From Hymenobacter sp. 15J16-1T3B (GTDB taxonomy: Bacteria > Bacteroidota > Bacteroidia > Cytophagales > Hymenobacteraceae), in the NCBI RefSeq assembly GCF_020711235.1, contig NZ_JAJFAV010000019.1:1-64000 (forward strand): DNA of 64,000 nucleotides, given 5' to 3'. The position numbers and the translations under genes were made by a program. Shown here piece by piece: positions 1 through 12,608 of this stretch (positions are counted from its first letter, which is position 1; every line of letters begins with the position of its first letter). The notes beneath the pieces are model-generated. The model did not search any database, was not told where the DNA came from, and saw only the letters and a list, made by a program, of their open reading frames with translations.

Positions 1-890
1 ACCACCTCCCCGATCTTGCGCCGGCCCCCGAACGCGTCGCGCCGCCACTCCTCCACCACGAACGCCACGTTGTAGTCCCCGAGCAGGTTAGGAGCATTCC
101 ACACTATCTGCCCGGTGCTGTCGTTCATCACCAAGATCGAAGAACTCGACGTGTCGCCCACCGGCGGCCCCGTGTAAGGCACCTGCATGCCGCCGGAGGC
201 AACGTTCGGGAACGTATAGCCCGGAATGTCGACCGGACGGGGCGTATTGTCGCCGCCGGGGCCCACAATGGAAGCTACCGAGCGCGGCTCGTACTGGCAC
301 ACCCGCAGGCGAAAGACGAGGGAATCCTGGTCTTTATCGGAGGCGCCGGGGTTGTGCAAGAACACTTGGCCCGCGGCGGCCCGGTCCACGGCCGGGGCGT
401 TGAGCACCGGCGAGTGGTTGACGCCGATGATGGGGTTGATGTTGACCTGGGTGTGGATGTAAAAGCTGCGGTCCTGCGACGACGGCACGTTGCGAATCCC
501 CGTGGCCCGCAGCTCGCCGATATGGCTAACCACGTACAGGCCGGGGGCGTTGTAGGTATGCTCGAAATAATAGACGCTGCGGGCTACGTTGTTGGCAAGC
601 CGCACCCTCGGCAGGCGGGTGGCGACCAGGCTGGTACCGTCGCCAAAAAAAATGGTTGCGAGGTTGCTTTGCGCATTGCCCGGGTCATCGGCGCCGGCGT
701 CAGCATCGGTATAAAGCACCATCTTGAAAAAGATGCGCAGCGGGTTGTGGGCCGGGGTCGAGTCGGGCTTGGCCTGGATGTCGCCGGCGCGGATGTGGCT
801 GGCCCGGGCGGGTGCCGCCAGTAGGCTCAGCACCAGGAGAATAGGCAGCAGCGCAAGCCGCAGCGGATGGCGGAGTAAGAGAGAAACCAT
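1..890 (-). CDS. Secreted gliding/T9SS-associated surface protein, N-terminal part (cut by window edge)
   Basis: The frame stays open from an ATG at 890 to the left edge, so only the first 296 or so residues are visible. It starts with a basic stretch and a hydrophobic signal peptide ending near ARA, followed by SHIRAGD. This mature N-terminus is typical of large Cytophagales proteins annotated as gliding-motility-associated or T9SS type B proteins. The rest is beta-rich, with PKD/cadherin-like wording such as HTYNAPGLYVV and NHSPVLNAP. The missing C-terminus should hold the sorting domain. Export is well supported; the gliding link is inference from family resemblance. Confidence 0.75.
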   Translation of the reverse strand, partial: MVSLLLRHPLRLALLPILLVLSLLAAPARASHIRAGDIQAKPDSTPAHNPLRIFFKMVLYTDADAGADDPGNAQSNLATIFFGDGTSLVATRLPRVRLANNVARSVYYFEHTYNAPGLYVVSHIGELRATGIRNVPSSQDRSFYIHTQVNINPIIGVNHSPVLNAPAVDRAAAGQVFLHNPGASDKDQDSLVFRLRVCQYEPRSVASIVGPGGDNTPRPVDIPGYTFPNVASGGMQVPYTGPPVGDTSSSSILVMNDSTGQIVWNAPNLLGDYNVAFVVEEWRRDAFGGRRKIGEV

Positions 891-1001
891 AAGCACTGCA
901 GGGGTAAGAAAAAGTAAGGAACGCAGGACGGGCAAACATTCCAACGCCGCACTTGCAAAAATCGTACGCACGGCGCGGGCCGGAGTTTGGCCCGCGCCAG
1001 T

Positions 1002-1781
1002 TTATAGATGCACCAAAGGCACCGGTTGCATATCCAGCGCCGCAATTTGTGCGCGGAAGGCCGTCGGAAGCAGGCTGGTGCGCGCCCAGCGGCTCGGGGC
1101 CAGGTGCTGCACGCGCCGGTACACGGCTATGACGGGCCGCAGCGCCTGCCCCCGGCCCAGGTGCAGCAACCGGCGCACCAGCGGGGGCACCACCAGCCCC
1201 TGGGCCTGGCGCAGCAGGGCGTAGCGCACCGGGCCGAGGTGGCGGCGGTACTGACGGTAGAGGTCGGTGGTGTAGCGGCTGGGCGCCAGATCCGCGGCGA
1301 GGTGCTGCGCACGCTGCTGCTGCCACTCGGCGTAGGTGGCGGGTACGGCCGCAATGCCCATGCGCCGGCCCACGCGCCCGAACACGTCGAACACTTCCGC
1401 CCGTTCGGCCGCCGTCAGGGGGCGCTCCAGCGCTTCGTGGGCCCGAATGGAGTAGTCGATGAGCATAAACAAAACGTCGCGGTAGGCCCAGTCGGGGATG
1501 CGGGCGCCCCGCTTGGCTTCCACCGCGCGGTGGATGTGGGCAATGGTGTCGATGGCACGCTCGGCGGCGGGCCGCTCGGCAAACACAATCTGCCGGGCGT
1601 ACTCGACGGTGGAAAACAGCCGGCCCAGCGGATCGGCGGGCAGCTTGCCGGTGAAATACAGCCAATCGACGGCTTTGTTCAGGGCAAATTCGGCCGCGGC
1701 CCCGGCGAATATGAACAGCACGGTGTCGGCCTTGCCCCAGATGGTGCGCACAATGGAGGTGGGCGCTACGAAATATTCCAT
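1002..1781 (-). CDS. Oxygenase MpaB-like protein (DUF2236)
   Basis: This 259-residue protein resembles the DUF2236/MpaB family, which includes latex-clearing rubber oxygenases and fungal MpaB. The family features visible are an early hydrophobic segment (GKADTVLFIFAGAAAEFALN), the His of IAHIHRAV, and a later RAHEAL segment in the position of the family's second conserved stretch. The substrate is unknown; bacterial members often act on hydrophobic compounds with a b-type haem, but that is family knowledge only. It is a single gene with its own promoter (1825-1854). Confidence 0.75.
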   Translation of the reverse strand: MEYFVAPTSIVRTIWGKADTVLFIFAGAAAEFALNKAVDWLYFTGKLPADPLGRLFSTVEYARQIVFAERPAAERAIDTIAHIHRAVEAKRGARIPDWAYRDVLFMLIDYSIRAHEALERPLTAAERAEVFDVFGRVGRRMGIAAVPATYAEWQQQRAQHLAADLAPSRYTTDLYRQYRRHLGPVRYALLRQAQGLVVPPLVRRLLHLGRGQALRPVIAVYRRVQHLAPSRWARTSLLPTAFRAQIAALDMQPVPLVHL

Positions 1782-1824
1782 GCCTCGAAAAACAGCAAAA
1801 ACTAGCCGGAAAGTTTGATGTCAG

Positions 1825-1854
1825 CAAAATTATCAAAGAGCTTTGTAATGCAAA
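1825..1854 (-). promoter_or_regulatory. Bacteroidetes-type promoter of the MpaB-like gene
   Basis: Read on the minus strand, TTTG (1851-1854) is followed after 18 bases by TAATTTTG (1825-1832). This fits the -33 TTTG and -7 TAnnTTTG consensus of the Bacteroidetes primary sigma factor. The predicted start near 1818 leaves a leader of about 35 bases before the ATG at 1781. Confidence 0.7.
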
Positions 1855-1937
1855 GTTAAAAATTGGCTTGATGAGTAAACCAGAGCAGATTGCTACCGCT
1901 CGTCCTTGGTCCTGTTCGGCCGCTAACTTGTTCGTCG

Positions 1938-2348
1938 ATGCCCCTATCTGCCAACGATTTGCTTGATCTGCGCCGGCGCTACGCGGGGCTGGCGGGCCTG
2001 ACCGTGCTGCTGGGGCTGGCCTCGCGGCGGTTTCAAGCGGGGCTGCCGAGTTGGGTGGGCCTCTACGCCGGCGACGGGCTCTGGGCCCTGCTGGTGTTTG
2101 GGCTGGTGGGGCTGGGGTGGCCGCGCGGGCCGCTGCGGCGCCGGGCGGGGTTGGCCGCCGCTTGGGCCCTGGCCACCGAGCTGAGCCAGCTGTGGCAGGC
2201 GCCGTGGCTGCAGGCGCTGCGGGCCACCCGGCTGGGGGCGCTGGTGCTCGGCCGGGGCTTTCTGTGGTCCGATTTGGGATGCTACGCCGCGGGCATCTTG
2301 CTGGGCTGCGCCCTCGACGGCTGGCTGAGGAACCCGCGCCAGCGCTAA
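1938..2348 (+). CDS. DUF2809 family membrane protein
   Basis: This small integral membrane protein of 136 residues is counted from the ATG at 1938; a TTG further upstream would add 16 residues without membrane character. The DUF2809 signature is clear: GLASR near the N-terminus, YAGDGLWALLVF, ATELSQLWQAPWLQALRATRLGALVLG split over the third and fourth helices, and FLWSDLGCYAAGILLG at the end. Four membrane helices are expected. The function of DUF2809 is unknown. Its stop lies 32 bases from the stop of the convergent ClC gene. Confidence 0.85.
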   Translation: MPLSANDLLDLRRRYAGLAGLTVLLGLASRRFQAGLPSWVGLYAGDGLWALLVFGLVGLGWPRGPLRRRAGLAAAWALATELSQLWQAPWLQALRATRLGALVLGRGFLWSDLGCYAAGILLGCALDGWLRNPRQR

Positions 2349-2380
2349 AGGCGGCCGGCGCTGCGCGCGGGCCTAAGCAC

Positions 2381-4159
2381 CTATTCGCTTTCCTTGATGA
2401 GCTGCTTGCGGTAGCTGGCCAGGATGGCCGACTTGAGCAGGAAGCCCACGTAGCGGCCGTTTTTGAGCACCGGCAACGACCACACGTTCAGCTGCTCCAT
2501 GCAGCGCAAGGTGTCCAGCAGGGTATCGTCGACGTTGACGGTGGCGGGCGGCTCGGTCATTAGGTCGCGCACACGGGTGGTGGTGTAGTGCTGCTCGTCG
2601 AAGAGGGCGTCGCGCACCTGATCGAGCGAGATGATGCCCACCAGTGCCCCATCGTCGTCGACCACGGGGAAGAGGTTGCGGGTGGCGTGGCGGAAGATGT
2701 CGACCAGCTCGCCCAGCGTCGCCTCGGGCTGCACCGGCTCGAAGTCGGTTTCGACGAGGCGGGAGAGGTCGAGCTGGGCCAGCAGGCCCCGGTCGCGGTC
2801 TTGGTGCACGTACACGCCGCGCTGCACCAGCTTGCGCGTGTACACCGAGTAGGGCTCGAAGTAGCGCGTGATGAGGTAGGAGCAGCTCGTCACCACCATC
2901 AGGGGCACGAACAGGGCGTAGCCGCCGGTAATTTCGGCAATAAGGAAGATGGCCGTGAGCGGGGCGTGCACCACGCCGGCCAGCACGCCGGCCATGCCCA
3001 GCACCACGAAGTGCACCTCCGGTACCACAAACCAGCCGCTGATGTTGATGAGCCGGGCGATGAAAAAACCTAGCAGCGCCCCCGAAAACAGCGAGGAACC
3101 GAACATGCCCCCGTTGCCGCCGGCCCCGATGGTGATGCAGGTGGCCAGCACCTTCAGTAGCATGGTACACAGGGCCACGGTGAGCAGAATCCACACGTTT
3201 TCGTCGCGGTACACCGAAAAAATACTGGCGTCGAGCAGGTGCTGGGGCTCCCCGCTGAGCAGGTTTTGCACGATGTTGTACCCTTCGCCGTAGAGCGGCG
3301 GGAAGACGAACACCAGCACGCCCAGCCCGATGCCGCCCAGGGCCACCTTGCGGAACGAGCCCTTCCACCGCTCAAACACCTTGTCGGCGGCGAAGTACAC
3401 CCGGATCATGTACACCGACAGCAGGGCCGCGCACAAACCCAGCACGATGTAAAACGGGATGGTGTCGACGTCCCAGCTGGTGGTGATGAGCACGAAGGGC
3501 TGGCCCGAAAACAGCAGTTTGGACACCACCGTGGCCGTGGCCGAGGAAATCAGCAGCGGGATGAAAAACGGCGCCGACAGCTCGCTCAGCACCACTTCCA
3601 CCGCAAACAGCACGCCGGCAATAGGCGAGTTGAAGATGGCCGCCACGCCCGCCGCCGCCCCGCAGCCCACCAGCAGGCGCCGCTCGCGCCGGCTCACGCG
3701 CAGGATGCGGGCCAGGTTGGAGCCGATGGCCGAGCCGGTGACGGAAATCGGGGCTTCCAGACCGGCCGAGCCGCCGAAGGTGACCGTGAGCAAGGAGCTG
3801 ACCCACTGCGAGTAGAGCTTGGAGCGCGGCACGATGCTGCCCTGCCGGGCCACCGAGTAGATGATGGGCCCGATGCCGCGGCCGAGGTTGCCGTGCAGCA
3901 CGTAGCGGGCGAAGAGCACCGTCAGCCCGATGCCGATGATGGGGTAGAGGAAGAGGGCGAAAACGCGGTTTTGCTCCGGAATCCAGCCGTAGAGCAATTC
4001 CTGCCCCCAGTGCACCGCATTTTTGAGCAGTACTGCCGCCAGGCCCGCCAGCATGCCCACCAGCACGCTCACCAGAATCAGGTACACCCGGTCGCTGACG
4101 TGGCGCAGGCGCCAAAGCAGCAAGGGACGGAGTACTCGGTGAACAACGCTTTGGGACAT
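2381..4159 (-). CDS. ClC-family chloride channel/transporter with C-terminal CBS pair
   Basis: A 592-residue member of the ClC family that moves chloride across the inner membrane. About ten membrane helices run from residue 20 to 430. The ion-path motifs are GRGIGP, GSAGLEAP and GGNGGMFGSS. The Glu of GLEAP is the gating glutamate, so proton-coupled exchange is possible. Two CBS domains follow (roughly residues 450-590), which in other ClC proteins bind nucleotides and tune activity. The ATG at 4159 is chosen over an upstream one because the extra 21 residues look non-coding. It appears to be a single gene. Confidence 0.93.
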   Translation of the reverse strand: MSQSVVHRVLRPLLLWRLRHVSDRVYLILVSVLVGMLAGLAAVLLKNAVHWGQELLYGWIPEQNRVFALFLYPIIGIGLTVLFARYVLHGNLGRGIGPIIYSVARQGSIVPRSKLYSQWVSSLLTVTFGGSAGLEAPISVTGSAIGSNLARILRVSRRERRLLVGCGAAAGVAAIFNSPIAGVLFAVEVVLSELSAPFFIPLLISSATATVVSKLLFSGQPFVLITTSWDVDTIPFYIVLGLCAALLSVYMIRVYFAADKVFERWKGSFRKVALGGIGLGVLVFVFPPLYGEGYNIVQNLLSGEPQHLLDASIFSVYRDENVWILLTVALCTMLLKVLATCITIGAGGNGGMFGSSLFSGALLGFFIARLINISGWFVVPEVHFVVLGMAGVLAGVVHAPLTAIFLIAEITGGYALFVPLMVVTSCSYLITRYFEPYSVYTRKLVQRGVYVHQDRDRGLLAQLDLSRLVETDFEPVQPEATLGELVDIFRHATRNLFPVVDDDGALVGIISLDQVRDALFDEQHYTTTRVRDLMTEPPATVNVDDTLLDTLRCMEQLNVWSLPVLKNGRYVGFLLKSAILASYRKQLIKESE

Positions 4160-4273
4160 GCGGTACGCGGCAAAGACGACTGGGCGGCCGCTAGGGCCCC
4201 TAACGCCGTCGGGTGCCCGCATGATACGGGGATTTGCGGAAATGGTGAAATAAGCGGGTGATTCCGCGGCGGC

Positions 4274-6028
4274 TTACTGGGGCACGAGCAGCTCGACCAA
4301 GAAGCCGTGCCCGGGCGCGGGGCCGGTGCGCAACGTGCCGCCGAGGGCCGTGGCCCGCTGCTGCATGCTGCGCAGGCCCAGCCCGCTGCGGCCCGAGGGG
4401 GCGGCCCCGCCGGCCTGCCCGTCGTCGGCCACGCGCAGGCGCAAGTTGCCGTCGGTGCGCTCCAGGCTCACGTGCAGCTCGGTGGCCTGCCGGGCGTGGC
4501 GGGCGGCGTTGCTGACGGCTTCCTTGAAAATAAGGTAGAGGTGCTGGCGCAGCTCGGGGTTCAGGTGCTCCTCGTCGCGCAGGCCGAGCACGTGCAGCTC
4601 GGTGGCCAGGCCCGCGGGCGGGGCGCACTGGTCGAGGTGGTCCCGCATGCGGTCGAGCAGGGCGCCCACAGTGTCGGCCTCGGCGTCGATGCCCCAGACG
4701 ATGTCGCGCATGGTGCTGGCGGCCTGGCGGGAGTTGGTGAGCAGGCGCTCCAGGGCTGGGTCGGGCTGGGGCTGCTGCTGGCGCAGCAGCTCGGCCTGCA
4801 GGTTCACGCGGGTGAGCAGGGTGCCCACTTCGTCGTGCAGGTCGGCGGCAATGCGGGTGCGCATGCGCAGGGCGGCCGTGGTGGAGGCCAGCAGGTGGCG
4901 GGCCCGCTGCCGCACCACCACCAGCACCAGCATCAGCCCGGCGCCGGCCAACACGGCCAGAAACAGGGTGGTGCGGCGCGTCAGTTCGGCTTCGCGCAGG
5001 CGGGTAGCGGCCTGCAGGGCGGCAATGCGCTGCTGCTGCCGGGCCAGCTGCTGCTCCTTCTGCTGGGTGGCGTGCAGCGTCTGCAGCTCGCGGGCGTGGC
5101 GCGCACTCGATTCCTCGAACAAGCTGTCCTGCAGCACGGCGTAGCGCCGCTGGTAGGTGAGGGCGCGCTGGTACTGGCCGAGCCGCTGCAGCGCCGGCAC
5201 CAGCGTCGTGGTCACGCTCATTTCGTCGTTGAGGTTGTGGGCGGCGCGGGCGGCGTGCAGGGTGGCTTCGAGGCGGCGGGCGGCGGCGGCGTAATGGCCC
5301 AGGCGGTAATCGAGCACGCCGCGCATTTCGTCCAGGAACAGTTGCGTGCCGATGTGGCGCGGCGGCGCGTAGGCGGCAAAGGCCGAGTCGAGCAGCGCCG
5401 CGGCGCGCGGGTACTGCTGCTGTTGTAGGGCCAGGTCGGCGAGGTTGGCCAGCCCCACCGCCACGTTGCCCGGGTCGCGCTCCTGCCGGGCCAGGCGCAG
5501 GGCTTGGCGGTAGCAGTGGGTGGCCAGCGGAAAGTCGCGCGCGATGGTGGCGCAGCAGGCGAGGTTGGTGTAGATGCCGCCCAGCTCGGCGCGACCGGCG
5601 GCGGTGTGGCGCGGCACCAGGCGCAGGGCCTCGCGGCCGTAGGCTATGCCGGGCTGGGGCTGTTTGAGCAGGTAATAGGAATAGCTCAGCCACTCGCAGG
5701 CCACGGCGGCGCGCAGGGAGTCGCCGTCTTCCAGGCCCATGCGCCGCGTCTGCAGCATCTGGATAATGGCCAGGCTGGGCTGGTTTTCGTGTAGGTAGTG
5801 GCCCGCCAGGTTGGCCAGCAGCTCGGCGCGCACCAGCCGGGGCAGCCCGGGGCGGCGGGTGAGGGCAACGACGGTGGGCGCCGTGCGCAGGGTGACGGGC
5901 TGCCGGGCCAGGCGCAGCTGGGCGGCCAGCGGCAGCCCGGGCAGGCGGCGCAGGCTGTCGAGCGGGGACGCGGCGGTGAGCCCATCCGCCAGCAGCACGC
6001 TGAGCAGTAAGCCAAAGAGGCGTTTCAT
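4274..6028 (-). CDS. TPR sensor histidine kinase (HisKA_3/LytS-NarX type)
   Basis: A 584-residue sensor kinase. A signal peptide is followed by an Ala/Leu/Arg-rich TPR-like helical region (about residues 40-330), a coiled coil rich in Gln, one membrane helix (TLFLAVLAGAGLMLVLVVV) and a HisKA_3 domain. The phosphoacceptor is His398 in DLHDEVGT. The HATPase_c domain has the N box (KEAVSNAARHA) and G boxes (DDGQAGG, GLGLRSM). Its natural partner type is a NarL/LuxR response regulator, and one lies 5 kb away at 10987. The genes between the two encode surface proteins, so the four probably form one regulatory unit (inference). Confidence 0.93.
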   Translation of the reverse strand: MKRLFGLLLSVLLADGLTAASPLDSLRRLPGLPLAAQLRLARQPVTLRTAPTVVALTRRPGLPRLVRAELLANLAGHYLHENQPSLAIIQMLQTRRMGLEDGDSLRAAVACEWLSYSYYLLKQPQPGIAYGREALRLVPRHTAAGRAELGGIYTNLACCATIARDFPLATHCYRQALRLARQERDPGNVAVGLANLADLALQQQQYPRAAALLDSAFAAYAPPRHIGTQLFLDEMRGVLDYRLGHYAAAARRLEATLHAARAAHNLNDEMSVTTTLVPALQRLGQYQRALTYQRRYAVLQDSLFEESSARHARELQTLHATQQKEQQLARQQQRIAALQAATRLREAELTRRTTLFLAVLAGAGLMLVLVVVRQRARHLLASTTAALRMRTRIAADLHDEVGTLLTRVNLQAELLRQQQPQPDPALERLLTNSRQAASTMRDIVWGIDAEADTVGALLDRMRDHLDQCAPPAGLATELHVLGLRDEEHLNPELRQHLYLIFKEAVSNAARHARQATELHVSLERTDGNLRLRVADDGQAGGAAPSGRSGLGLRSMQQRATALGGTLRTGPAPGHGFLVELLVPQ

Positions 6029-6077
6029 GCAGAAGGCAAACGGGCGCGCGAGCAGAGCGAGGCCGCGCGCCGACTGG

Positions 6078-6085
6078 TAAAAATA
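6078..6085 (-). promoter_or_regulatory. Candidate -7 box for the sensor kinase gene
   Basis: The minus strand reads TATTTTTA, one base off TAnnTTTG, 49 bases upstream of the kinase ATG. No clear -33 element is seen, so this is a weak call. Confidence 0.35.
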
Positions 6086-6108
6086 CGGGTTGCCGCGGGG
6101 CTTACGCA

Positions 6109-6156
6109 CTGCCGCCCGCCCCAATCAGTGCGCGGCACTCTCGGGGCGGGCGGCAG
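6109..6156 (-). terminator. Long GC hairpin between fibre gene and kinase gene
   Basis: Two perfect 14-base arms (6109-6122 and 6143-6156) enclose a loop with a further 5-base stem (AGTGC/GCACT). It begins 28 bases after the fibre-protein stop codon. There is no T-run, so it may stabilise the 3' end or end transcription by another route. It suggests that the kinase is mostly transcribed on its own. Confidence 0.55.
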
Positions 6157-6183
6157 AAGGTAGCCGACAGGGGTCGGCGGGGC

Positions 6184-9100
6184 TTACTTGGCCTCGGCCT
6201 TGGCCCCCAGCAGGTTTTCCAGGGCTTTCAGGCGCTGGGCCAGGTCGGCGGTCTGCGCGGCCTGGGTTTGCAGCGAGGCGTGCTGCTGATCAAGACGCTG
6301 GCCCTGGGCGTGGTTTTGCTGGCGCAACTGGGCGTTTTGCTGTTCCAGTTCGGCCACTTTGCGGGCCAGTTCCTGGGTGGCCGACACGTTGAGCATGGCC
6401 AGGGCTTCGTAGTCGACGGTGCGCACGTCGGAGTGCTCCAGGCCAAACACGAACACCGCCTGGCCGGCCAGCTGCCGGGCCCCGCGCACCACCAGCGTGG
6501 TGCCGCGGACGGCCTTCACCGTGCCCACGACTTCGCAGGATGCGCCGATGAGCTTGATGCGCTGGCCGGGCGCGGCGGCCGGGGCGGCGGGCAGGGTCAG
6601 CACCAGCAGCGAATCGGCCTGCGCGGCGGCCTGGGTGGCGCTGGCGTAGATGTCGGGCAGGAAGCCGCTATGCTGGTTGACGGCCTGCGGAAACACTTCC
6701 TCCACTTCCTGGGCAATGACCTTCTTGAAGCGGCGCTGCCCGTACTGCACCCGGTCGCGCATGGTGTAGTCGGTGATGCGCAGGCGCTGGAGCAGGGCCA
6801 AATCCTGGGCGGCGTTGCTCAGGCCGATGACGGTTTTGAGGCGGCGGTCGGAGGTGGCGTTGAATTCGGTGGCCAGCACCCGGCCCGTGGCGCGGATGCT
6901 CACCGCGCCGGTGTTGTTGGTGGCGTAGCCGGTGGAGCCGCCGCCGTTGAGGTAGCCGTAGTTGAAGTTGCCGGGCGTCACCGAGCGCTGCACGTCGAGC
7001 GGGTACGCGGGCGCGGTGGTGCCGATGCCCACGTTGGTGCCGCTGAACGTGAGGTAGTTGGTGCCGCCGAAGCCCGGGCCGTCGTTGAACTTGAGCTTGA
7101 AGTTGTCGTTGGCATCCAGGCCCACGGAGGCCCAGGCGTTGCCGGGCGAGTGCACGACCAGGTAGGGGCTCTGCTGGCGGATTTCCAGCGGGCCGTTGGG
7201 CAGGGCCGCGTTGCTGAAGCCCGAACCGATGCCCAGGCGGCCGTTTTTCAGCACCATCTGCTGGCTGCCCCCGCCGGCGTCAAACTGCGTGTCGTTGTGC
7301 GAACCGCCCGCGTACCAGGCAAAAGCCTCGCCCGAGCGGAAGTACTCGGTGCCGCCTTGAATGCCAATGCCGTAGTCGGTATTCCAGAGGTTGAGCATCT
7401 GCCGGGTGCTGGCCCCGAAGCCCAGCGTGCCGCGCACCAATTGGCTGCCGTTCACGTCGAGCAGGGCCGCGGGGCTGGTCGTGCCGATGCCCACGCTGCC
7501 CGCGCCCTTGGGCATCAGGTTCAGGTTTTGGTCGGCGTTGGTGCCCGCCGCGTAGAGCGAGTTGTAGCCGATGCCCACGCCCTGCGTGCCGTTGTAGTGC
7601 CGGAATTCTGCCCCGCCGGCGGCTTGGTCGAAGTCGCCGGTCACGTACAGCGGGCGGCCCGAGGCGTGCGTGCCGGTGCGCCCGGCGGTGGTTTGCACGT
7701 CCAGGCGGTTGGCGGGCGTGGTGTTGCCCGTGCCGATGCCCACCGAGCCGTCGGCTTCAATGCTCACGTTGGGCGTGGTGCCAGCGTTGTCGTCGGAGTA
7801 GAAGCGGATGGGGGCGTTGTTGGTCACCAGGCGCATGAATACGCCGCTCTGGCGGGAGTACAGGCCCAAATCGGATGTAGCAGTAATGGCCGCGCCGCCG
7901 CGCTGAATCACGCCGGCCGGCAGCAGCAGGCCGCCGCTGCTCGTCAGGCCCAGGCCGCTGCTGCCGCCGTTGCCCACGAGTTGGTTGGCGCCCAGGTTCA
8001 GGTTCTGCGTGGCGGTGTGGTTGCCCAGGTTGTCGGCCCCGTTGGGCAGCGTCACGGCGTTGCCCCCGCTGATGCTCAGCGTCTGCCCGCTCAGCGCCAG
8101 CGTCTGGGCGTCGGTGGGCAGGGCTTGCGCGGCGAGCGTGCCGTTGTTATCGGTCGTCACCATGCGCGTGCCGCTGCCACCGAGGCCGTCGAGACGGGTG
8201 CTGCCGGTGACGTGCAGCGCCGCCTGGGGGCTGCTGGTGCCCACGCCCAGGCGGCTAGTGGCGTTGTCCCAATAGAGCTGGTTGCTGCCGCTGAGCTTGC
8301 TGCCGTCGCTGAAAATCACAGTGCCGGCCGCTTGGGAGGTGGTGGCGTTGTTCAGGCTGATGATGGGGGCTTCGGGCTGAAAGCTGAAGCTCAGGCGGGC
8401 GTAGCCCGCCCCGTTCTGGTAGCCTTGGGTGTGCGTCACGTTGCTGGTCAGCGCGGGGTCGGCGTAGGACGAGCCGCCGCCGGCGCCGGCGTTGCCGTGG
8501 CTCATGCCGCCGCCGTAGTAGCCGCCCCCGCCGCCCGCCGCGCCCCAGCTGGTGCCGCCGGTCAGACCCGCGCCCACGCCGGGGCCGGCCGGACTCGTGC
8601 CGCAGTAGCAGTACTGCTGCGGCGTGCCGCCCGTGACGCCGCCGGCCGATTGGCTGCCGCCGGTGCCCGGCGTGCCCGTCGGGTTGCCCGCCGTCGGAAT
8701 CAGCCCGTCGCCGCCGGTCAGGCCCCCGCCGGGGCCCCCGCGGGCGTAGTAACCCGAGCCGCCGCCGCCGCCGGCCACCAGCACCCGGTTGGTGAGGGCC
8801 GTACCCCCGATGCGAATGTCGGTAGCGCCGCCGCCCGGTTCGCTGCCGCGCCCGCCGCCGTTGTAGCCCCCGTCCTGGTAAAGCGTACTTGGATTATAGC
8901 CCCGGTCGCCCCCCACTTCAATGGTGAGCACCTGGCCCGGCGTCACCGTCAGCGTGGCCTGGACCCGGCCGCCCCGGCCGCCCCGGTAGCAGTTGCTGCA
9001 GTTGTCGATGGTGCGGCCGCGGGCCCCGGCCATGTCCACCTGCACGCTGGTCACGTTCGGCGGCACGGTCCAGGTCTGCGAGGTGCCGGTGTAGTTGAAG

Positions 9101-9426
9101 GTCAGCGTCTGCGGGCCGCTGGCGCTGGCCGAGAGGCCCTGCACCGATTCGCCCCAGTAGAAGCCGTTCCAGGTGTTGAGCTTGCCCGCGTCGGTGTTGT
9201 AGATGGTCAGGCCGGCCGCCGGGCTGGCAATGGCGTCGCGTTGCGCCTGCGTCATGCGCGGAGGCAGCAGGCCCTTGGCCGTCGAGGACACCTCCAGCGC
9301 CGCCGAAGCGTGCGGCGTGGTCGTTCCCACGCCCACCGAGCCGGTCGGCGTTTGGGCCCGGGCCGCGGGCGTAAGCAGCGCCAGCAGCAGAGCCGGCAAT
9401 AGCGCAAATCGTAAACGGTGTTGCAT
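6184..9426 (-). CDS. Glycine-rich, fibre-like surface protein with C-terminal S74 self-cleaving chaperone
   Basis: A 1080-residue secreted protein. It has a signal peptide (to about residue 24), a repeated GVGT-TTP-A-AL-V beta segment typical of long tail-fibre-like bacterial proteins, and a glycine-rich domain (about 115-340; GGGATDIRIGG, VAGGGGGSG). A long run of fibre-like beta repeats with recurring VGIGT follows. SDRRLK at 859-864 starts a Peptidase_S74 intramolecular chaperone, and the last 65 residues form a Gln-rich coiled coil. In phage endosialidases this domain drives trimer folding and then cuts itself off at the Ser-Asp motif. The start is the ATG at 9426. No T9SS sorting domain is visible, so the route across the outer membrane is open. 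Confidence 0.85.
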   Translation of the reverse strand: MQHRLRFALLPALLLALLTPAARAQTPTGSVGVGTTTPHASAALEVSSTAKGLLPPRMTQAQRDAIASPAAGLTIYNTDAGKLNTWNGFYWGESVQGLSASASGPQTLTFNYTGTSQTWTVPPNVTSVQVDMAGARGRTIDNCSNCYRGGRGGRVQATLTVTPGQVLTIEVGGDRGYNPSTLYQDGGYNGGGRGSEPGGGATDIRIGGTALTNRVLVAGGGGGSGYYARGGPGGGLTGGDGLIPTAGNPTGTPGTGGSQSAGGVTGGTPQQYCYCGTSPAGPGVGAGLTGGTSWGAAGGGGGYYGGGMSHGNAGAGGGSSYADPALTSNVTHTQGYQNGAGYARLSFSFQPEAPIISLNNATTSQAAGTVIFSDGSKLSGSNQLYWDNATSRLGVGTSSPQAALHVTGSTRLDGLGGSGTRMVTTDNNGTLAAQALPTDAQTLALSGQTLSISGGNAVTLPNGADNLGNHTATQNLNLGANQLVGNGGSSGLGLTSSGGLLLPAGVIQRGGAAITATSDLGLYSRQSGVFMRLVTNNAPIRFYSDDNAGTTPNVSIEADGSVGIGTGNTTPANRLDVQTTAGRTGTHASGRPLYVTGDFDQAAGGAEFRHYNGTQGVGIGYNSLYAAGTNADQNLNLMPKGAGSVGIGTTSPAALLDVNGSQLVRGTLGFGASTRQMLNLWNTDYGIGIQGGTEYFRSGEAFAWYAGGSHNDTQFDAGGGSQQMVLKNGRLGIGSGFSNAALPNGPLEIRQQSPYLVVHSPGNAWASVGLDANDNFKLKFNDGPGFGGTNYLTFSGTNVGIGTTAPAYPLDVQRSVTPGNFNYGYLNGGGSTGYATNNTGAVSIRATGRVLATEFNATSDRRLKTVIGLSNAAQDLALLQRLRITDYTMRDRVQYGQRRFKKVIAQEVEEVFPQAVNQHSGFLPDIYASATQAAAQADSLLVLTLPAAPAAAPGQRIKLIGASCEVVGTVKAVRGTTLVVRGARQLAGQAVFVFGLEHSDVRTVDYEALAMLNVSATQELARKVAELEQQNAQLRQQNHAQGQRLDQQHASLQTQAAQTADLAQRLKALENLLGAKAEAK

Positions 9427-9477
9427 AGAAAGGTGGAAGAGACGTATAGCCGGCCGGCCCGAGGGGCCACCGGACCA

Positions 9478-9508
9478 CAAAACTACCGGAGCCAGCAGGC
9501 CGCACAAA
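9478..9508 (-). promoter_or_regulatory. Promoter of the fibre-protein gene
   Basis: On the minus strand TTTG (9505-9508), 19 bases, then TAGTTTTG (9478-9485). The match to the Bacteroidetes consensus is full, and the predicted leader is about 45 bases. The same -7 octamer occurs before the next gene upstream (10885-10892). Confidence 0.75.
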
Positions 9509-9515
9509 CCAACTG

Positions 9516-9532
9516 TGTACCGCATTTGGGGG
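9516..9532 (-). promoter_or_regulatory. Shared upstream motif, copy 1 (putative activator site)
   Basis: CCCCAAATGCGGTACA on the minus strand sits 30 bases upstream of the -7 box. An identical 16-mer lies 31 bases upstream of the -7 box of the 9634-10827 gene. The position just above the -33 element is where activators usually bind. The response regulator at 10987 is the obvious candidate, by inference. Confidence 0.55.
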
Positions 9533-9566
9533 ACGTCTGTGGGCCCGCGGGCCCACAGCAGCGGGT

Positions 9567-9620
9567 GCCGGGCATCAAAAAGCCCTGCCGGACGCCCGAC
9601 AGGGCATTTTGATGCCCGGC
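9567..9620 (-). terminator. Intrinsic terminator, works in both directions
   Basis: Outer arms of 14 bases (9567-9580 and 9607-9620) and an inner GCCCTG/CAGGGC stem enclose a short loop. T-rich tracts lie within the stem edges. It begins 14 bases after the stop of the T9SS gene at 9634 and separates that gene from the promoter of the fibre gene. Confidence 0.75.
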
Positions 9621-9633
9621 GGATACCTGCCTG

Positions 9634-10827
9634 CTACTGCAGCAACAACTGCGAAGTGGCGCGGTGTGCCCCCTGCTGCACGGTCAGCGCGTACAGCCCC
9701 GGGCGCAGCCCGGCAGTAGCTGCCGCGGGCAGCATTGCGCTGCCCGCCGGCAGCGGTTGGTGGAGCACCGTGCGGCCCAGCGCGTCGACCAGAGTCAGCT
9801 GCACGGGCTGCCCGGCCGCCGCGCCCGGCAAGGCCAGCTGCAGGGGCTGCCCCGCGGCCAGCGGGTTGGGCCAGGCCTGCCAGCCCGCGGCCAGCGCCGT
9901 ACTAGCGGTGGTCGTCAGTACGTTGCTTTCGGTGGAGTAGTCGGCGAAGGCGGGCGTGGCGTACTGCCGGTTGGGGTAGTACAGCTCCAGCAGCGGCTGG
10001 GCCGAGCCCATGCGCCAGAAGTGGTCGAGGAAAAACGTGCTGACGCCGCCCTGGGTCAGGCCAAAAGCCGCCAGCAGGGCCGCCGGGGCCGGCGCGCCGT
10101 TCAGATACACGCTGTCTTGCCGGATGGTGCGGCTGCGCACCAGCAGGACCGGCAGCGGGTCGGAGCCGGCGGCGCGGCCCGCCACGGGGATGCGCAGCGT
10201 GCCCCAGCCCGCCACCGAGTCGACGTAGGTGTAGCGCTGCACCAGGCGGAACGGGGCGCGGTTCAGGCTGGCGCCGGCTATGGTGAGCGTGCCCGTCACC
10301 CCGATGCGGAAGCTTTGCTGGGAGCGGCTGCCGGCCGTCAGCGGCAGCGGGAAGTCGGCAATGCCGCTGGCTCCGCCGTAGGGCGCGTTTTGGCGGTTGA
10401 CCACGATGGAGTCGTTGGCGCCGCCGGTGCGCGAGGCAATGGAAAACGGCTGGCGAGTGATGCTGCGCCCCAGGGCCATCCGGCCGGTGGCGGCCAGGTT
10501 GAAGTAGGTGGTCAGCACGTAGGAGAAGGCGCCGATGGTGCTGGTGTTGGCGCGCGTCCACTGCGCCCCGGCGAAGGCCGGGCTGGCCGGCACCGATAGG
10601 TTCAGCAGGTTGTAGGCCGAGCCGCTGGGCAGCAGGCCGCGGTAGTCCCAGCTCTGGTTGGCGCCGGTGGTGGGCGCGCCCAGGCCCGCGGGCAGGGCGG
10701 CGTCCTGGTAGCGCTCCACGGTGGCGGCCGATGCCGGGAACGTGGCCTGGGTGAGCGTAATGGGCGACTGGGCCAGTGCCGGCAGGGCCAGCAGCGTCAG
10801 GGGCAACAGGGTAAAACGTGGGGTCAT
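9634..10827 (-). CDS. Secreted protein with T9SS type A sorting domain
   Basis: A 397-residue exported protein. The signal peptide is MTPRFTLLPLTLLALPALAQ. A body of about 290 residues has no family I recognise; it is beta-rich, with WDYRGLLPSGSAYNLLNL near the start. The last 80 or so residues are a classic T9SS domain: PNPLAAGQPLQLALP, LVDALGRTV, LRPGLYALTV and a final LLLQ. It is therefore expected to cross the outer membrane and be attached or released there. It shares its promoter layout with the fibre gene downstream and diverges from the response regulator, which suggests co-regulation. Confidence 0.85.
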   Translation of the reverse strand: MTPRFTLLPLTLLALPALAQSPITLTQATFPASAATVERYQDAALPAGLGAPTTGANQSWDYRGLLPSGSAYNLLNLSVPASPAFAGAQWTRANTSTIGAFSYVLTTYFNLAATGRMALGRSITRQPFSIASRTGGANDSIVVNRQNAPYGGASGIADFPLPLTAGSRSQQSFRIGVTGTLTIAGASLNRAPFRLVQRYTYVDSVAGWGTLRIPVAGRAAGSDPLPVLLVRSRTIRQDSVYLNGAPAPAALLAAFGLTQGGVSTFFLDHFWRMGSAQPLLELYYPNRQYATPAFADYSTESNVLTTTASTALAAGWQAWPNPLAAGQPLQLALPGAAAGQPVQLTLVDALGRTVLHQPLPAGSAMLPAAATAGLRPGLYALTVQQGAHRATSQLLLQ

Positions 10828-10884
10828 AGGGGATAAAAAAGAGGAGAGAAGGCGTCGAAAGCCAGTTAAGCCGGCTGTTGGATG

Positions 10885-10915
10885 CAAAACTACCGGGGCA
10901 AAATCCAGCGGCCAA
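10885..10915 (-). promoter_or_regulatory. Promoter of the T9SS gene in the surface locus
   Basis: The minus strand carries TAGTTTTG (10885-10892) with TTGG (10912-10915) 19 bases upstream. The leader before the ATG at 10827 would be about 50 bases. The -7 octamer equals that of the fibre gene. Confidence 0.65.
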
Positions 10916-10923
10916 GGGCGGGT

Positions 10924-10939
10924 TGTACCGCATTTGGGG
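10924..10939. promoter_or_regulatory. Shared upstream motif, copy 2, between divergent genes
   Basis: This 16-base sequence is identical to 9516-9531. It lies between the minus-strand T9SS promoter and the plus-strand response regulator (ATG at 10987), so one bound protein could act on both. A weak plus-strand promoter (TTGG at 10952, GTCCTTTG at 10975) is also present. Confidence 0.55.
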
Positions 10940-10986
10940 ACGGGCCACGCCTTGGTTTCGGCCGGGGCGCTGCCGTCCTTTGCCCC

Positions 10987-11622
10987 ATGAACCCGATTCT
11001 GCTGGCCTTGGTCGAAGACGACCCCGAAGTGCGCGAGCTGCTGCGCGGCTACCTCTGCCGGCAGCCCGAGCTGCGCTGCGTGCTCGTGGCCGACTCCGCC
11101 GAAGCCTTCCTGGCCGAGCTGCCCGACCTGGTGCAGCCCCCGCAGGTAGTGCTGCTCGACATTCACCTGCCCGGCATGAGCGGGCTCGACGCGCTGCCGC
11201 TTATCAAGCAGCGCCTGCCCGACGCCGACGTGCTCATGCAAACCGTGTTCGACGACGCCGACCGCATCTACCGCGCCCTCTGCGCCGGGGCCTCGGGCTA
11301 CGTGCTCAAAAATACCCCGCTGGCCGACATCAAAGCCGCGGTGCTCGAAGTGGTCGGCGGCGGGGCACCTATGAGCCGGGCCGTGGCCCGCAAAGTGCTG
11401 GCCCACTTCAAGCCCAGTCCCGCCATGCAATCGGACCTGCTCTCGGAGCGGGAGCGGGAAGTGGTGCAGGCCATCGTCGACGGGCTGGGCGACAAGCAGG
11501 TGGCCGCCCGCCTCGACCTCTCGGTGGAAACCGTGCGCACCTACGTCAAGCGCATCTACCGCAAGCTGCAGGTCAGCTCGCGCACCGAGCTGGTGAGCCG
11601 CCACGCTCGTGGGCAGCTCTGA
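10987..11622 (+). CDS. NarL/LuxR-type response regulator
   Basis: A 211-residue two-component regulator. The receiver domain (residues 1-125) has the acidic pair after LALVEDD, the phosphoacceptor Asp58 in VVLLDIHLPGMSG, the T/S position in MQTVFDDAD and Lys near GYVLKN. The C-terminal GerE-type helix-turn-helix reads LSEREREVVQAIVDGLGDK, VAARLDLSVETVRTYVKRIYRKL. The ATG at 10987 is the only start that gives a normal N-terminus. It is transcribed away from the two surface genes and is the likely partner of the kinase at 4274-6028 (inference from locus and family match). Confidence 0.95.
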   Translation: MNPILLALVEDDPEVRELLRGYLCRQPELRCVLVADSAEAFLAELPDLVQPPQVVLLDIHLPGMSGLDALPLIKQRLPDADVLMQTVFDDADRIYRALCAGASGYVLKNTPLADIKAAVLEVVGGGAPMSRAVARKVLAHFKPSPAMQSDLLSEREREVVQAIVDGLGDKQVAARLDLSVETVRTYVKRIYRKLQVSSRTELVSRHARGQL

Positions 11623-11677: not shown

Positions 11678-11727
11678 CCCCCCTTACCGGCGCGGTTGAG
11701 CTGAGCTCAGCGCGCCGGCAAGGGGGG
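11678..11727. terminator. Hairpin between convergent genes
   Basis: Arms 11678-11694 and 11711-11727 pair over 16 of 17 positions (one A-C mismatch); the loop holds the palindrome CTGAGCTCAG. It lies between the response regulator stop and the MscS stop and could end transcription from either side. There is no strong T-run. Confidence 0.5.
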
Positions 11728-11768: not shown

Positions 11769-12608
11769 TTACTGCACGGCCGCCGGGTGCGGGTAGCCTT
11801 GCTGCAGCAGCAGCTCCCGGATGCCCTGCATCAGCTCGCTTTTCAGCTCCTGGGTGCCGCGGCGGTAGTCCTCGGAGTAGGTCCAGAAATACACGTGCAG
11901 GGTGGCCACGGTGCCGTCGGTTTTCTCCAGGATGATGTAGGGCCGGTGCCCTTCCTCGTCCTTCACGTCGTGGAAGGCGCGCACGAAGTCGAGCAGCAGC
12001 TGCTTGAGCTCGGCCGGGCCACCTTTGCCTTCCATGTCCACGGCCACCAGAAAGTCTTGGCGGATGTGGCCGTCGCGGGTGAAGTTGATCAGCGGTTCGC
12101 GCAGCACCATGGCGTTGGGCAGGTAGATGTCCTTGCCGTCGAAGGTTTTGATGAGGGTGGTGCGCAGGTTCAGCGCTTCCACCCGGCCCATGAGCGTCTG
12201 GTTGTCCTTGATCTGAATCGTGTCGTGGATGCGGAAGGGACGGTTGAAGGCCAGCACCACGCCGGCCAGGAAGTTTTCGGCAATGTCCTTGAGCGCGAAG
12301 CCCACCACGAAAGCCGTCAGGCCGGCGCCGGCCACCATGCCGCTCACCACGCCCGTCATGCCGATGACCTGCAGCACCAGCGTGAGGCCGAGCAGAATGA
12401 GGGCCCACTTGGTGAGGCGGGTCAGGAATTCGGCCAGCAGCGGGTCGTGGGAGCGGGCGTGCAGGCGCCCGCCGACGAGGCGGCTGATGCGGTTGGAGAG
12501 GAAAATGGCAATGACCAGCAGGATCAGGGCCAGGGCCAGCTTGGGCAGCAGGTAGAGAAATTGAGTCCAGTAAGCGGAAAGGACCCGGTGGAGGTCGGTA
12601 AGCAGCAT
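11769..12608 (-). CDS. Small-conductance mechanosensitive channel (MscS family)
   Basis: A 279-residue inner-membrane channel that opens under membrane tension and releases solutes after osmotic downshock. Three helices are visible: residues about 15-40, 65-90 and 95-130. The pore helix is Gly/Ala-rich (GMVAGAGLTAFVVGFALKD) and leads into the conserved AENFLAGVVLAFNRPF segment. The beta domain follows with PNAMVLREPLINFT. The ATG at 12608 gives the normal MscS length. No operon partner is evident. Confidence 0.93.
   Translation of the reverse strand: MLLTDLHRVLSAYWTQFLYLLPKLALALILLVIAIFLSNRISRLVGGRLHARSHDPLLAEFLTRLTKWALILLGLTLVLQVIGMTGVVSGMVAGAGLTAFVVGFALKDIAENFLAGVVLAFNRPFRIHDTIQIKDNQTLMGRVEALNLRTTLIKTFDGKDIYLPNAMVLREPLINFTRDGHIRQDFLVAVDMEGKGGPAELKQLLLDFVRAFHDVKDEEGHRPYIILEKTDGTVATLHVYFWTYSEDYRRGTQELKSELMQGIRELLLQQGYPHPAAVQ

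Follow-up and report, generated by a model that had tools for sequence, protein, structure and literature searches.

Hymenobacter sp. 15J16-1T3B carries, in the 64,000-nucleotide stretch of DNA analysed here (the window), a sensor histidine kinase gene and a NarL-type response-regulator gene that enclose exactly two others, for an S74 fibre protein and an exported protein; domain searches bore out this part of an earlier sequence-only reading. The locus raises the question of whether these genes form a dedicated two-component cassette that switches on the surface fibre and the exported protein. We consider this likely. The genes, operators, promoter spacing and their conservation can be read directly from the sequences, and the features of the locus are as follows.

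4274–6028, (−): sensor histidine kinase, 584 aa; HisKA_3 and HATPase_c; TPR matches below the Pfam cut-off
6109–6156: hairpin ending the S74 unit, fold z −6.3
6184–9426, (−): S74 fibre protein, 1080 aa; PF12810 glycine-rich domain and Peptidase_S74
6679–6852, (−): Peptidase_S74 domain; SDRRLK (SDxxxK) motif at residue 859
8413–9039, (−): glycine-rich domain (ALK_LTK_GRD), the sole match in this genome
9478–9485, (−): −7 box TAGTTTTG of the S74 promoter
9505–9507, (−): −33 TTG of the S74 promoter
9518–9533: predicted operator B, an imperfect 7-2-7 inverted repeat upstream of the S74 gene
9567–9620: hairpin ending the exported-protein unit, fold z −7.6
9634–10827, (−): exported protein, 397 aa; main domain rich in beta structure, probable T9SS-type C-terminal domain
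10885–10892, (−): −7 box TAGTTTTG of the exported-protein promoter
10913–10915, (−): −33 TTG of the exported-protein promoter
10926–10941: predicted operator A, flanked by the diverging promoters of the exported protein and the regulator
10952–10954, (+): −33 TTG of the regulator promoter
10975–10982, (+): −7-like GTCCTTTG of the regulator promoter, 4 of 6 consensus positions
10987–11622, (+): NarL-type response regulator, 211 aa; Response_reg and GerE
11678–11727: two-way hairpin where the regulator gene meets the convergent mechanosensitive-channel gene
11769–12608: mechanosensitive-channel gene, convergent with the regulator gene

The three hairpins are real, with arm complementarity of 92–100% and fold z-scores of −5.4 to −7.6. 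The broader proposal that every unit is closed by its own hairpin holds for three of the four units (S74, exported protein and regulator), the three that the search covered.

Surface proteins and the conserved core

The S74 domain of the fibre protein scores 30.1 bits against a cut-off of 22, and both the domain and an SDxRLK motif are present in 20 of 21 fibre proteins. A signal peptide and a C-terminal coiled coil were judged by eye, as were all signal peptides. The fibre tips vary among relatives and are either glycine-rich or composed of NHL and F5/8C domains. For the exported protein, the predicted fold holds a small beta-sandwich that resembles the solved T9SS C-terminal domains 8qb1 (TM 0.76) and 8glk (TM 0.81; both by target length) at a probability of 1.00 over 81–93 columns. 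The T9SS tag itself (TIGR04183) reaches 16.2 bits, below the cut-off of 23, and a profile of 18 relatives matched a solved T9SS tail with an E value of 0.62 at best. DUF3244 and other Ig-like domains also match the predicted fold at a probability of 1.00. T9SS export, as first proposed, is probable. A fold search with the predicted main domain gave no clear match (whole-length TM at most 0.19).

Of 204 genomes of the family, 16 encode the regulator at an identity of at least 75%, and at all 16 loci the regulator and an S74 gene adjoin. At 14 of these loci a kinase gene sits beyond the regulator, on its far side; the exceptions are the window and the locus of H. edaphi. The framing of the surface genes by kinase and regulator is thus incidental, and kinase and regulator were ruled out as conserved end markers because the place of the kinase varies. 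Of these loci, that of H. edaphi shows the same four-gene order, as does that of H. jeollabukensis, where additional genes are present. We also rejected the exported protein as a core member: it is missing from 2 of the 16 loci, and of the 31 genomes with a relative of it, 17 lack the regulator at 75%. Neither regulator nor operator was found within the 20 kb read around the relative of the exported protein in H. translucens (77% identical) or around the S74 protein of Hymenobacter sp. ASUV-10 (82% identical). Surface genes without the two-component genes, which the sequence-only reading had named as evidence against a dedicated system, therefore exist in part of the relatives. The conserved core consists of the kinase, the regulator and the S74 fibre; the exported protein is optional, and sensors and fibre tips are swapped.

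Proposed pairing of kinase and regulator

The regulator has the receiver and GerE helix–turn–helix domains of the NarL/FixJ type, and VraR and NarL are its nearest solved structures by sequence. Residues D11, D12, D58 and K108 are invariant in 17 sequences, with D58 as the phospho-acceptor alongside the acidic pocket. The sensor region of the kinase is a weak TPR match (TPR_12, 26.5 bits against a cut-off of 30.1), and that of the H. edaphi kinase lies above the cut-off at 34.6 bits. The phospho-acceptor His398 of HisKA_3 is invariant across 15 aligned kinases, an alignment that left out the truncated kinase of locus L085, the second kinase of L067 and the kinase of L197. Over 43 loci, the identity of the kinase core and that of the regulator are closely correlated (r = 0.90), and none of 1,000 permutations reached as high a value; this comparison used one of the two L067 kinases and left out the paralogous loci L154 and L157–L160, which gave no good kinase match. 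Shared ancestry also yields synteny and co-variation of a kinase and a regulator.

No operator was found at the kinase gene and its place is variable, so the pairing with the regulator rests on synteny and co-variation. A different kinase elsewhere in the genome might control the regulator, the nearby TPR kinase being a bystander; the variable kinase position, the propeller-sensor kinases that adjoin the regulator in some relatives in place of the TPR type, and the lack of a kinase beyond the regulator in the window all accord with this. We nevertheless judge it unlikely, as the phospho-transfer core is conserved over TPR and propeller types and has a mean identity of 69% among cassette kinases compared with 54% to the kinases of paralogous loci. 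Pairing of the regulator with the neighbouring kinase is the reading that we carry forward.

Operators and promoter spacing

A 15-mer at 9517–9531 is repeated at 10925–10939, within the two stretches that the sequence-only reading had put forward for regulator binding (9516–9532 and 10924–10939). The 6.33-Mb genome holds exactly these two copies, both at this locus, no place with one mismatch and 15 places with two mismatches. The latter number is at chance level, because the reversed control matches 14 times in total when up to two mismatches are allowed, and the promoter layout of both exact copies was found at none of the 15. The 15-mer is part of a 7-2-7 inverted repeat, the symmetry of which fits binding by a NarL-type dimer; the heptamer sequence in the window differs from the NarL consensus. 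A sigma-70 scan was uninformative for this phylum.

Among relatives, all 16 genomes with the regulator at this level of identity (75% or more) have such an operator in the gap that separates it from the divergent surface gene. The exact 15-mer occurs at 17 places in 12 of the 204 family genomes (reversed control, 1 place), and 11 of the 12 carry the regulator at this identity (Fisher p of about 1e-13, uncorrected for kinship); the remaining five regulator genomes have an operator variant instead. The looser pattern TACCKCATTTGVGG was discarded as a stand-alone operator test, since it matches 48 of 204 genomes and its reversed control 41.

The spacing to the promoter is also fixed. At 27 of 29 sites, a TAnnTTTG-like −7 box (5 of 6 positions) lies 40–42 nt from the operator centre, compared with 17 of 3,000 random places, and 23 of the 29 have TTG at +18; the two sites lacking a −7 box are regulator-side copies at loci with doubled operators. 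The 29 sites leave out 14 places with 11–12 of 14 matches that lie outside the regulator–surface gene gaps of the 16 loci, one of which (in L069) has a 5/6 −7 box at 40–42 nt on one side. This rule was derived from the same sites that it describes, and the checks beyond them were the two-mismatch sites of the window's own genome, H. gummosus and six new places. In H. gummosus, a locus found separately and later, an operator with the spacing on both sides lies between the regulator and the exported protein, and a near copy precedes each of its two S74 genes; at L073, the S74 gene lacks an operator of its own. The six new places came from 54 operator-like places, which reduced to 40 once those with an identical 26-base context were counted as one; 15 have the layout, and 9 of these 15 were already among the 29 sites. 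Five of the six are in genomes with a relative of the regulator. This reading left out seven pattern places in other genomes (G160, G162, G166, G173, G185, G186 and G202).

The regulator-facing promoter resembles those of the surface genes but is weaker: all 16 loci combine TTG at +18 with a TTTG box at 41–42, and the box has only 4 of 6 consensus positions at 9 of them, the window included. Given this similar, weaker promoter at every locus, the regulator probably controls its own gene.

Instead of activating these promoters, the regulator could repress the surface genes and itself until a signal releases them, and a single operator between two divergent promoters is a layout that repressors also use. 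The operator, however, is placed upstream of −33 and, wherever there is a −7 box (27 sites), does not overlap it, and upstream placement at a fixed spacing is typical of activators; repression is accordingly a distinctly unlikely reading. We give still less weight to the site belonging to another regulator or being a sigma-factor element, with the two-component genes as mere neighbours. The genome does encode further NarL-type regulators, 46% and 44% identical to this one, but the exact site tracks the presence of the regulator over 204 genomes, has a symmetry suited to a NarL-type dimer and is absent at both surface-gene relatives examined outside the cassette, making this explanation very improbable. 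Recent copying of a promoter region, rather than selection for regulator binding, is scarcely credible: both surface-gene promoters of the window also share CCGGTAGTTTTG, but over 30 sites the −33 to −7 stretch has diverged (0.17 bits per position) and the operator is kept (1.67 bits), at regulator identities down to 75%.

Proposed mechanism and known counterparts

We propose that the membrane kinase senses a signal in the envelope or outside the cell and would phosphorylate the NarL-type regulator, a dimer of which would bind the 7-2-7 inverted repeat directly upstream of the −33 element. From two operators it would activate three promoters, those of the S74 fibre, the exported protein and the regulator's own gene. 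The S74 protein would be exported, form trimers through its C-terminal S74 chaperone, cleave this chaperone off at SDRRLK, and be displayed as a putatively adhesive fibre with middle domains that differ among species; the exported, probably T9SS-borne protein would be displayed alongside. The original suggestion of a signal-controlled surface system is supported by the common promoter site, the fixed spacing kept in relatives and the regulator–S74 adjacency at 16 of 16 loci; the framing is not conserved. A bolder version, which we think quite improbable, is a plug-and-play cassette with a nearly fixed regulator–operator core and swappable sensors and tips, in which the TPR sensor reads the self-cleaved S74 chaperone, or some other part of the fibre, remaining in the periplasm, and the cell so gauges the assembly of its own fibre.

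The sequence-only reading knew of no described unit of this kind, and there the literature disagrees. According to PMC1974823 and PMC11053733, FimS/FimR of Porphyromonas gingivalis, also a member of the Bacteroidota, is a TPR kinase and a regulator of fimbriae; FimS has a periplasmic TPR sensor, and FimR activates surface-fibre genes, binding directly to the promoter regions of mfa1 and of the first gene of the fimA cluster. The FimS/FimR targets are fimbrillins, whereas those predicted in the window include an S74 fibre, and its genes form a compact cassette whose operator was defined by comparison. Domain searches of the two enclosed genes gave no match to fimbrillin families, and the window kinase matches the NCBIfam FimS model with an E value of 1e-7 at 30.6 bits, far below the cut-off of 600. 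Compared by layout, the fibre resembles the MAT fibres of Bdellovibrio bacteriovorus, as these are described in the main text of PMC10769870, in having a signal peptide, a long body of mosaic make-up, exchangeable tips and, at the C-terminus, an S74 domain with SDxxxK; the host differs in phylum and way of life, and that main text does not contain 'two-component' or 'glycine-rich'. MAT fibres are further marked by an N-terminal beta-rich domain of about 130 aa that is conserved among them. Escherichia coli NarL binds 7-2-7 sites and, in the account of yeaR–yoaG in PMC7419079, likewise uses a single repeat directly upstream of the −35 element, although its promoters are of the −35/−10 type and those of the window of the Bacteroidota −33/−7 type. 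By analogy, our reading is that the cassette may work like FimS/FimR, with a fibre like the Bdellovibrio MAT proteins.

We found no account of such a regulator, operator and regulon for Hymenobacter in the open-licence literature. The cassette supplies a regulator, a predicted operator and a predicted three-promoter regulon with exact positions, and control of the S74 fibre is therefore directly testable. It suggests that fibres with the layout used by a predator for prey recognition can be signal-controlled in free-living Bacteroidota, and the swapping of sensors and tips around a constant core offers a natural experiment in the rewiring of inputs and outputs. A search of 390 genomes from 129 genera of the wider order, with E values up to 1e-70 and 7 candidates per genome scored, detected the regulator in 14 genomes and 2 genera, and plasmid-borne relatives occur in three Hymenobacter records, each below 60% identity.

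A predicted NarL-type operator at the window locus and across the family

The sequence-only reading had described two surface genes between a sensor kinase and a response regulator, and all four genes were confirmed where it had placed them. With their neighbours, they are:

2381-4222, CLC channel with CBS domains (neighbour)
4274-6028, sensor kinase
6184-9426, S74 fibre protein
9634-10827, exported protein (probable T9SS cargo)
10987-11622, NarL-type regulator, divergent
11769-12608, mechanosensitive channel (neighbour)

The three hairpins of the locus fold far more strongly than shuffled sequence. Both promoter regions share the 15-mer GTACCGCATTTGGGG (9517-9531, before the S74 gene, and 10925-10939, between the exported-protein and regulator genes), which overlaps a predicted operator of the 7-2-7 type; as set out in the available text of PMC7419079, a NarL 7-2-7 site comprises two inverted 7-base elements separated by 2 bases. 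These are the only two copies in the 6.33-Mb genome, in which no one-mismatch copies were found; two-mismatch copies number 15, about the same as for the reversed control (14 at two or fewer mismatches).

Among 204 Hymenobacteraceae genomes, the exact 15-mer occurs in 12 (17 places; 1 place for the reversed control), and 16 have the regulator (75% identity or higher). The two occur together in 11 genomes (Fisher P about 1e-13, a value inflated by kinship among the genomes). The single 15-mer genome outside the regulator set is an assembly that is 81% complete, and the five regulator genomes lacking the exact 15-mer have GTACCTCATTTGAGG or close variants. Clean versions of the operator are found at paralogous regulator loci, for example CTTGTACCGCA-TT-TGCGGTACAAG, in which two 11-base arms are inverted around TT. 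Within the window's own genus, three of eight genomes lack both the 15-mer and the exported protein.

Spacing between operator and promoter

For the phylum, the available text of PMC7366714 reports a promoter consensus of TAnnTTTG at −7 and TTTG near −33, the −33 part not being seen in Flavobacterium. Across the 16 loci with the regulator, a −7 box matching TAnnTTTG at no fewer than five of six positions starts at a distance of 40-42 nt from the centre for 27 of 29 operators, as against 17 of 3,000 random places, and 23 of the 29 have TTG at +18. The two operators without a spaced −7 box are regulator-side copies in loci with a doubled operator. On the side facing the regulator, all 16 loci have TTG at +18 together with a TTTG box located at 41-42, the latter matching at five of six positions in seven loci and at four of six in nine, including the window. 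Over 30 sites, mean information per position falls from 1.67 bits within the operator to 0.48 between the operator and −33, and to 0.17 between −33 and −7.

Outside these 29 sites, the regulator operator of H. gummosus fits the spacing on both sides, and near copies lie about 105-110 nt upstream of both its S74 genes. A looser pattern gave 40 distinct matches, 15 of which have the promoter layout (nine re-found from the 29 and six new). Five of the six new places are in genomes with a regulator relative (E of 1e-70 or better), as are 5 of the 25 matches without the layout. None of the 15 two-mismatch sites in the window's own genome has it.

Elsewhere, in the 81%-complete assembly (locus L097), an exact 15-mer with the promoter layout (285-299) precedes a 1193-aa protein (391-3972) that combines a T9SS tail with a galactose-binding-like domain. 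Two further genomes each have a DUF6934 gene that is not part of the cassette (L188:977-1435 and L096:9226-9708, both on the minus strand) behind an operator copy with the layout; the distance to the operator centre is 71 nt for one and about 300 nt for the other, and the gene is a possible distant regulon member.

Constant and exchangeable parts of the cassette

Every one of the 16 loci encodes one or more S74 proteins bearing SDxRLK, and in 15 an S74 gene comes immediately behind an operator; in the exception (L073) it follows the exported protein and has no operator of its own. Exported-protein relatives are present in 14 loci, immediately behind the regulator-adjacent operator in 10 of them. 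A kinase lies on the far side of the regulator in 14 of 16, in some with one intervening gene. The nearest named relatives of the window genome are H. edaphi, H. busanensis, H. translucens, H. jeollabukensis and H. gummosus. In the window and H. edaphi the kinase is downstream of the fibre gene, and H. jeollabukensis has a kinase in both places and two fibre genes, each with an operator; this distribution suggests that the window species may retain one fibre and one kinase from a larger ancestral set.

Kinase cores are similar in all 15 aligned proteins but the sensors vary: TPR_12 matches in seven, Reg_prop in three, and the rest have other matches or none at that threshold. S74 domain identity is 80-93% (19 fibre rows reaching the domain), against 16-93% in the middle region. 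Of the 21 fibre proteins aligned (16 loci and H. gummosus), 17 have a glycine-rich domain; in H. ruricola, one member of a pair of adjacent fibres carries NHL and F5/8C domains and lacks a glycine-rich match.

Relatives of both surface genes occur without regulator and operator, so neither gene is tied to the cassette. Among 31 genomes with an exported-protein relative (E of 1e-20 or better), 17 have no regulator at 75% identity; H. translucens has the exported protein at 77% identity with neither regulator nor operator nearby, and Hymenobacter sp. ASUV-10 has an 82% identical S74 protein with neither in the 20 kb read, and a 66% regulator relative elsewhere in its genome. Pairing of kinase and regulator is suggested by synteny and a correlation of 0.90 (43 loci), which common descent would equally give.

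At one locus (L095:5184-6647, minus strand), a 487-aa T9SS-tagged protein follows the S74 gene with ends touching; reading frames of 482-492 aa are likewise placed in six more loci, and none in the window.

Proposed mechanism and related systems

We propose that the kinase senses a signal and that a regulator dimer would then occupy the operators, raising transcription of the regulator's own gene and of the genes for the fibre and the exported protein. The fibre protein contains SDxxxK, the motif given for self-cleaving S74 chaperones in the available text of PMC10769870; a domain-family search found no T9SS tail in it. It is expected to be trimeric and adhesive, with tip domains that may be selected by what each species encounters.

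By analogy, the cassette may work in the manner of FimS/FimR, in which, according to the available portions of PMC1974823 and PMC11053733, FimR binds promoters of fimbrial genes and the FimS kinase has periplasmic TPRs. However, we rejected filing it as FimS/FimR, because the window kinase scores below the cut-off of the FimS model and the target genes are not the same. The fibre is similar in layout to Bdellovibrio MAT proteins. In the open-licence literature searched, we found no regulator and S74 fibre combined as one cassette with its own operator.

The paralogous regulator of locus L130 (74% identity) belongs to a sister cassette: it is paired with a related kinase, a similar inverted repeat separates it from a protein with a glycine-rich domain, and a T9SS-tagged protein comes next, with no S74 match. 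The window's own genome has a cluster of four S74-domain matches (C23:310-8812) without the exact 15-mer. Loci L133 and L134 have two inverted 11-base arms on either side of TT and a −7 box at 42 nt, and several S74 genes lie close by, beside another regulator pair.
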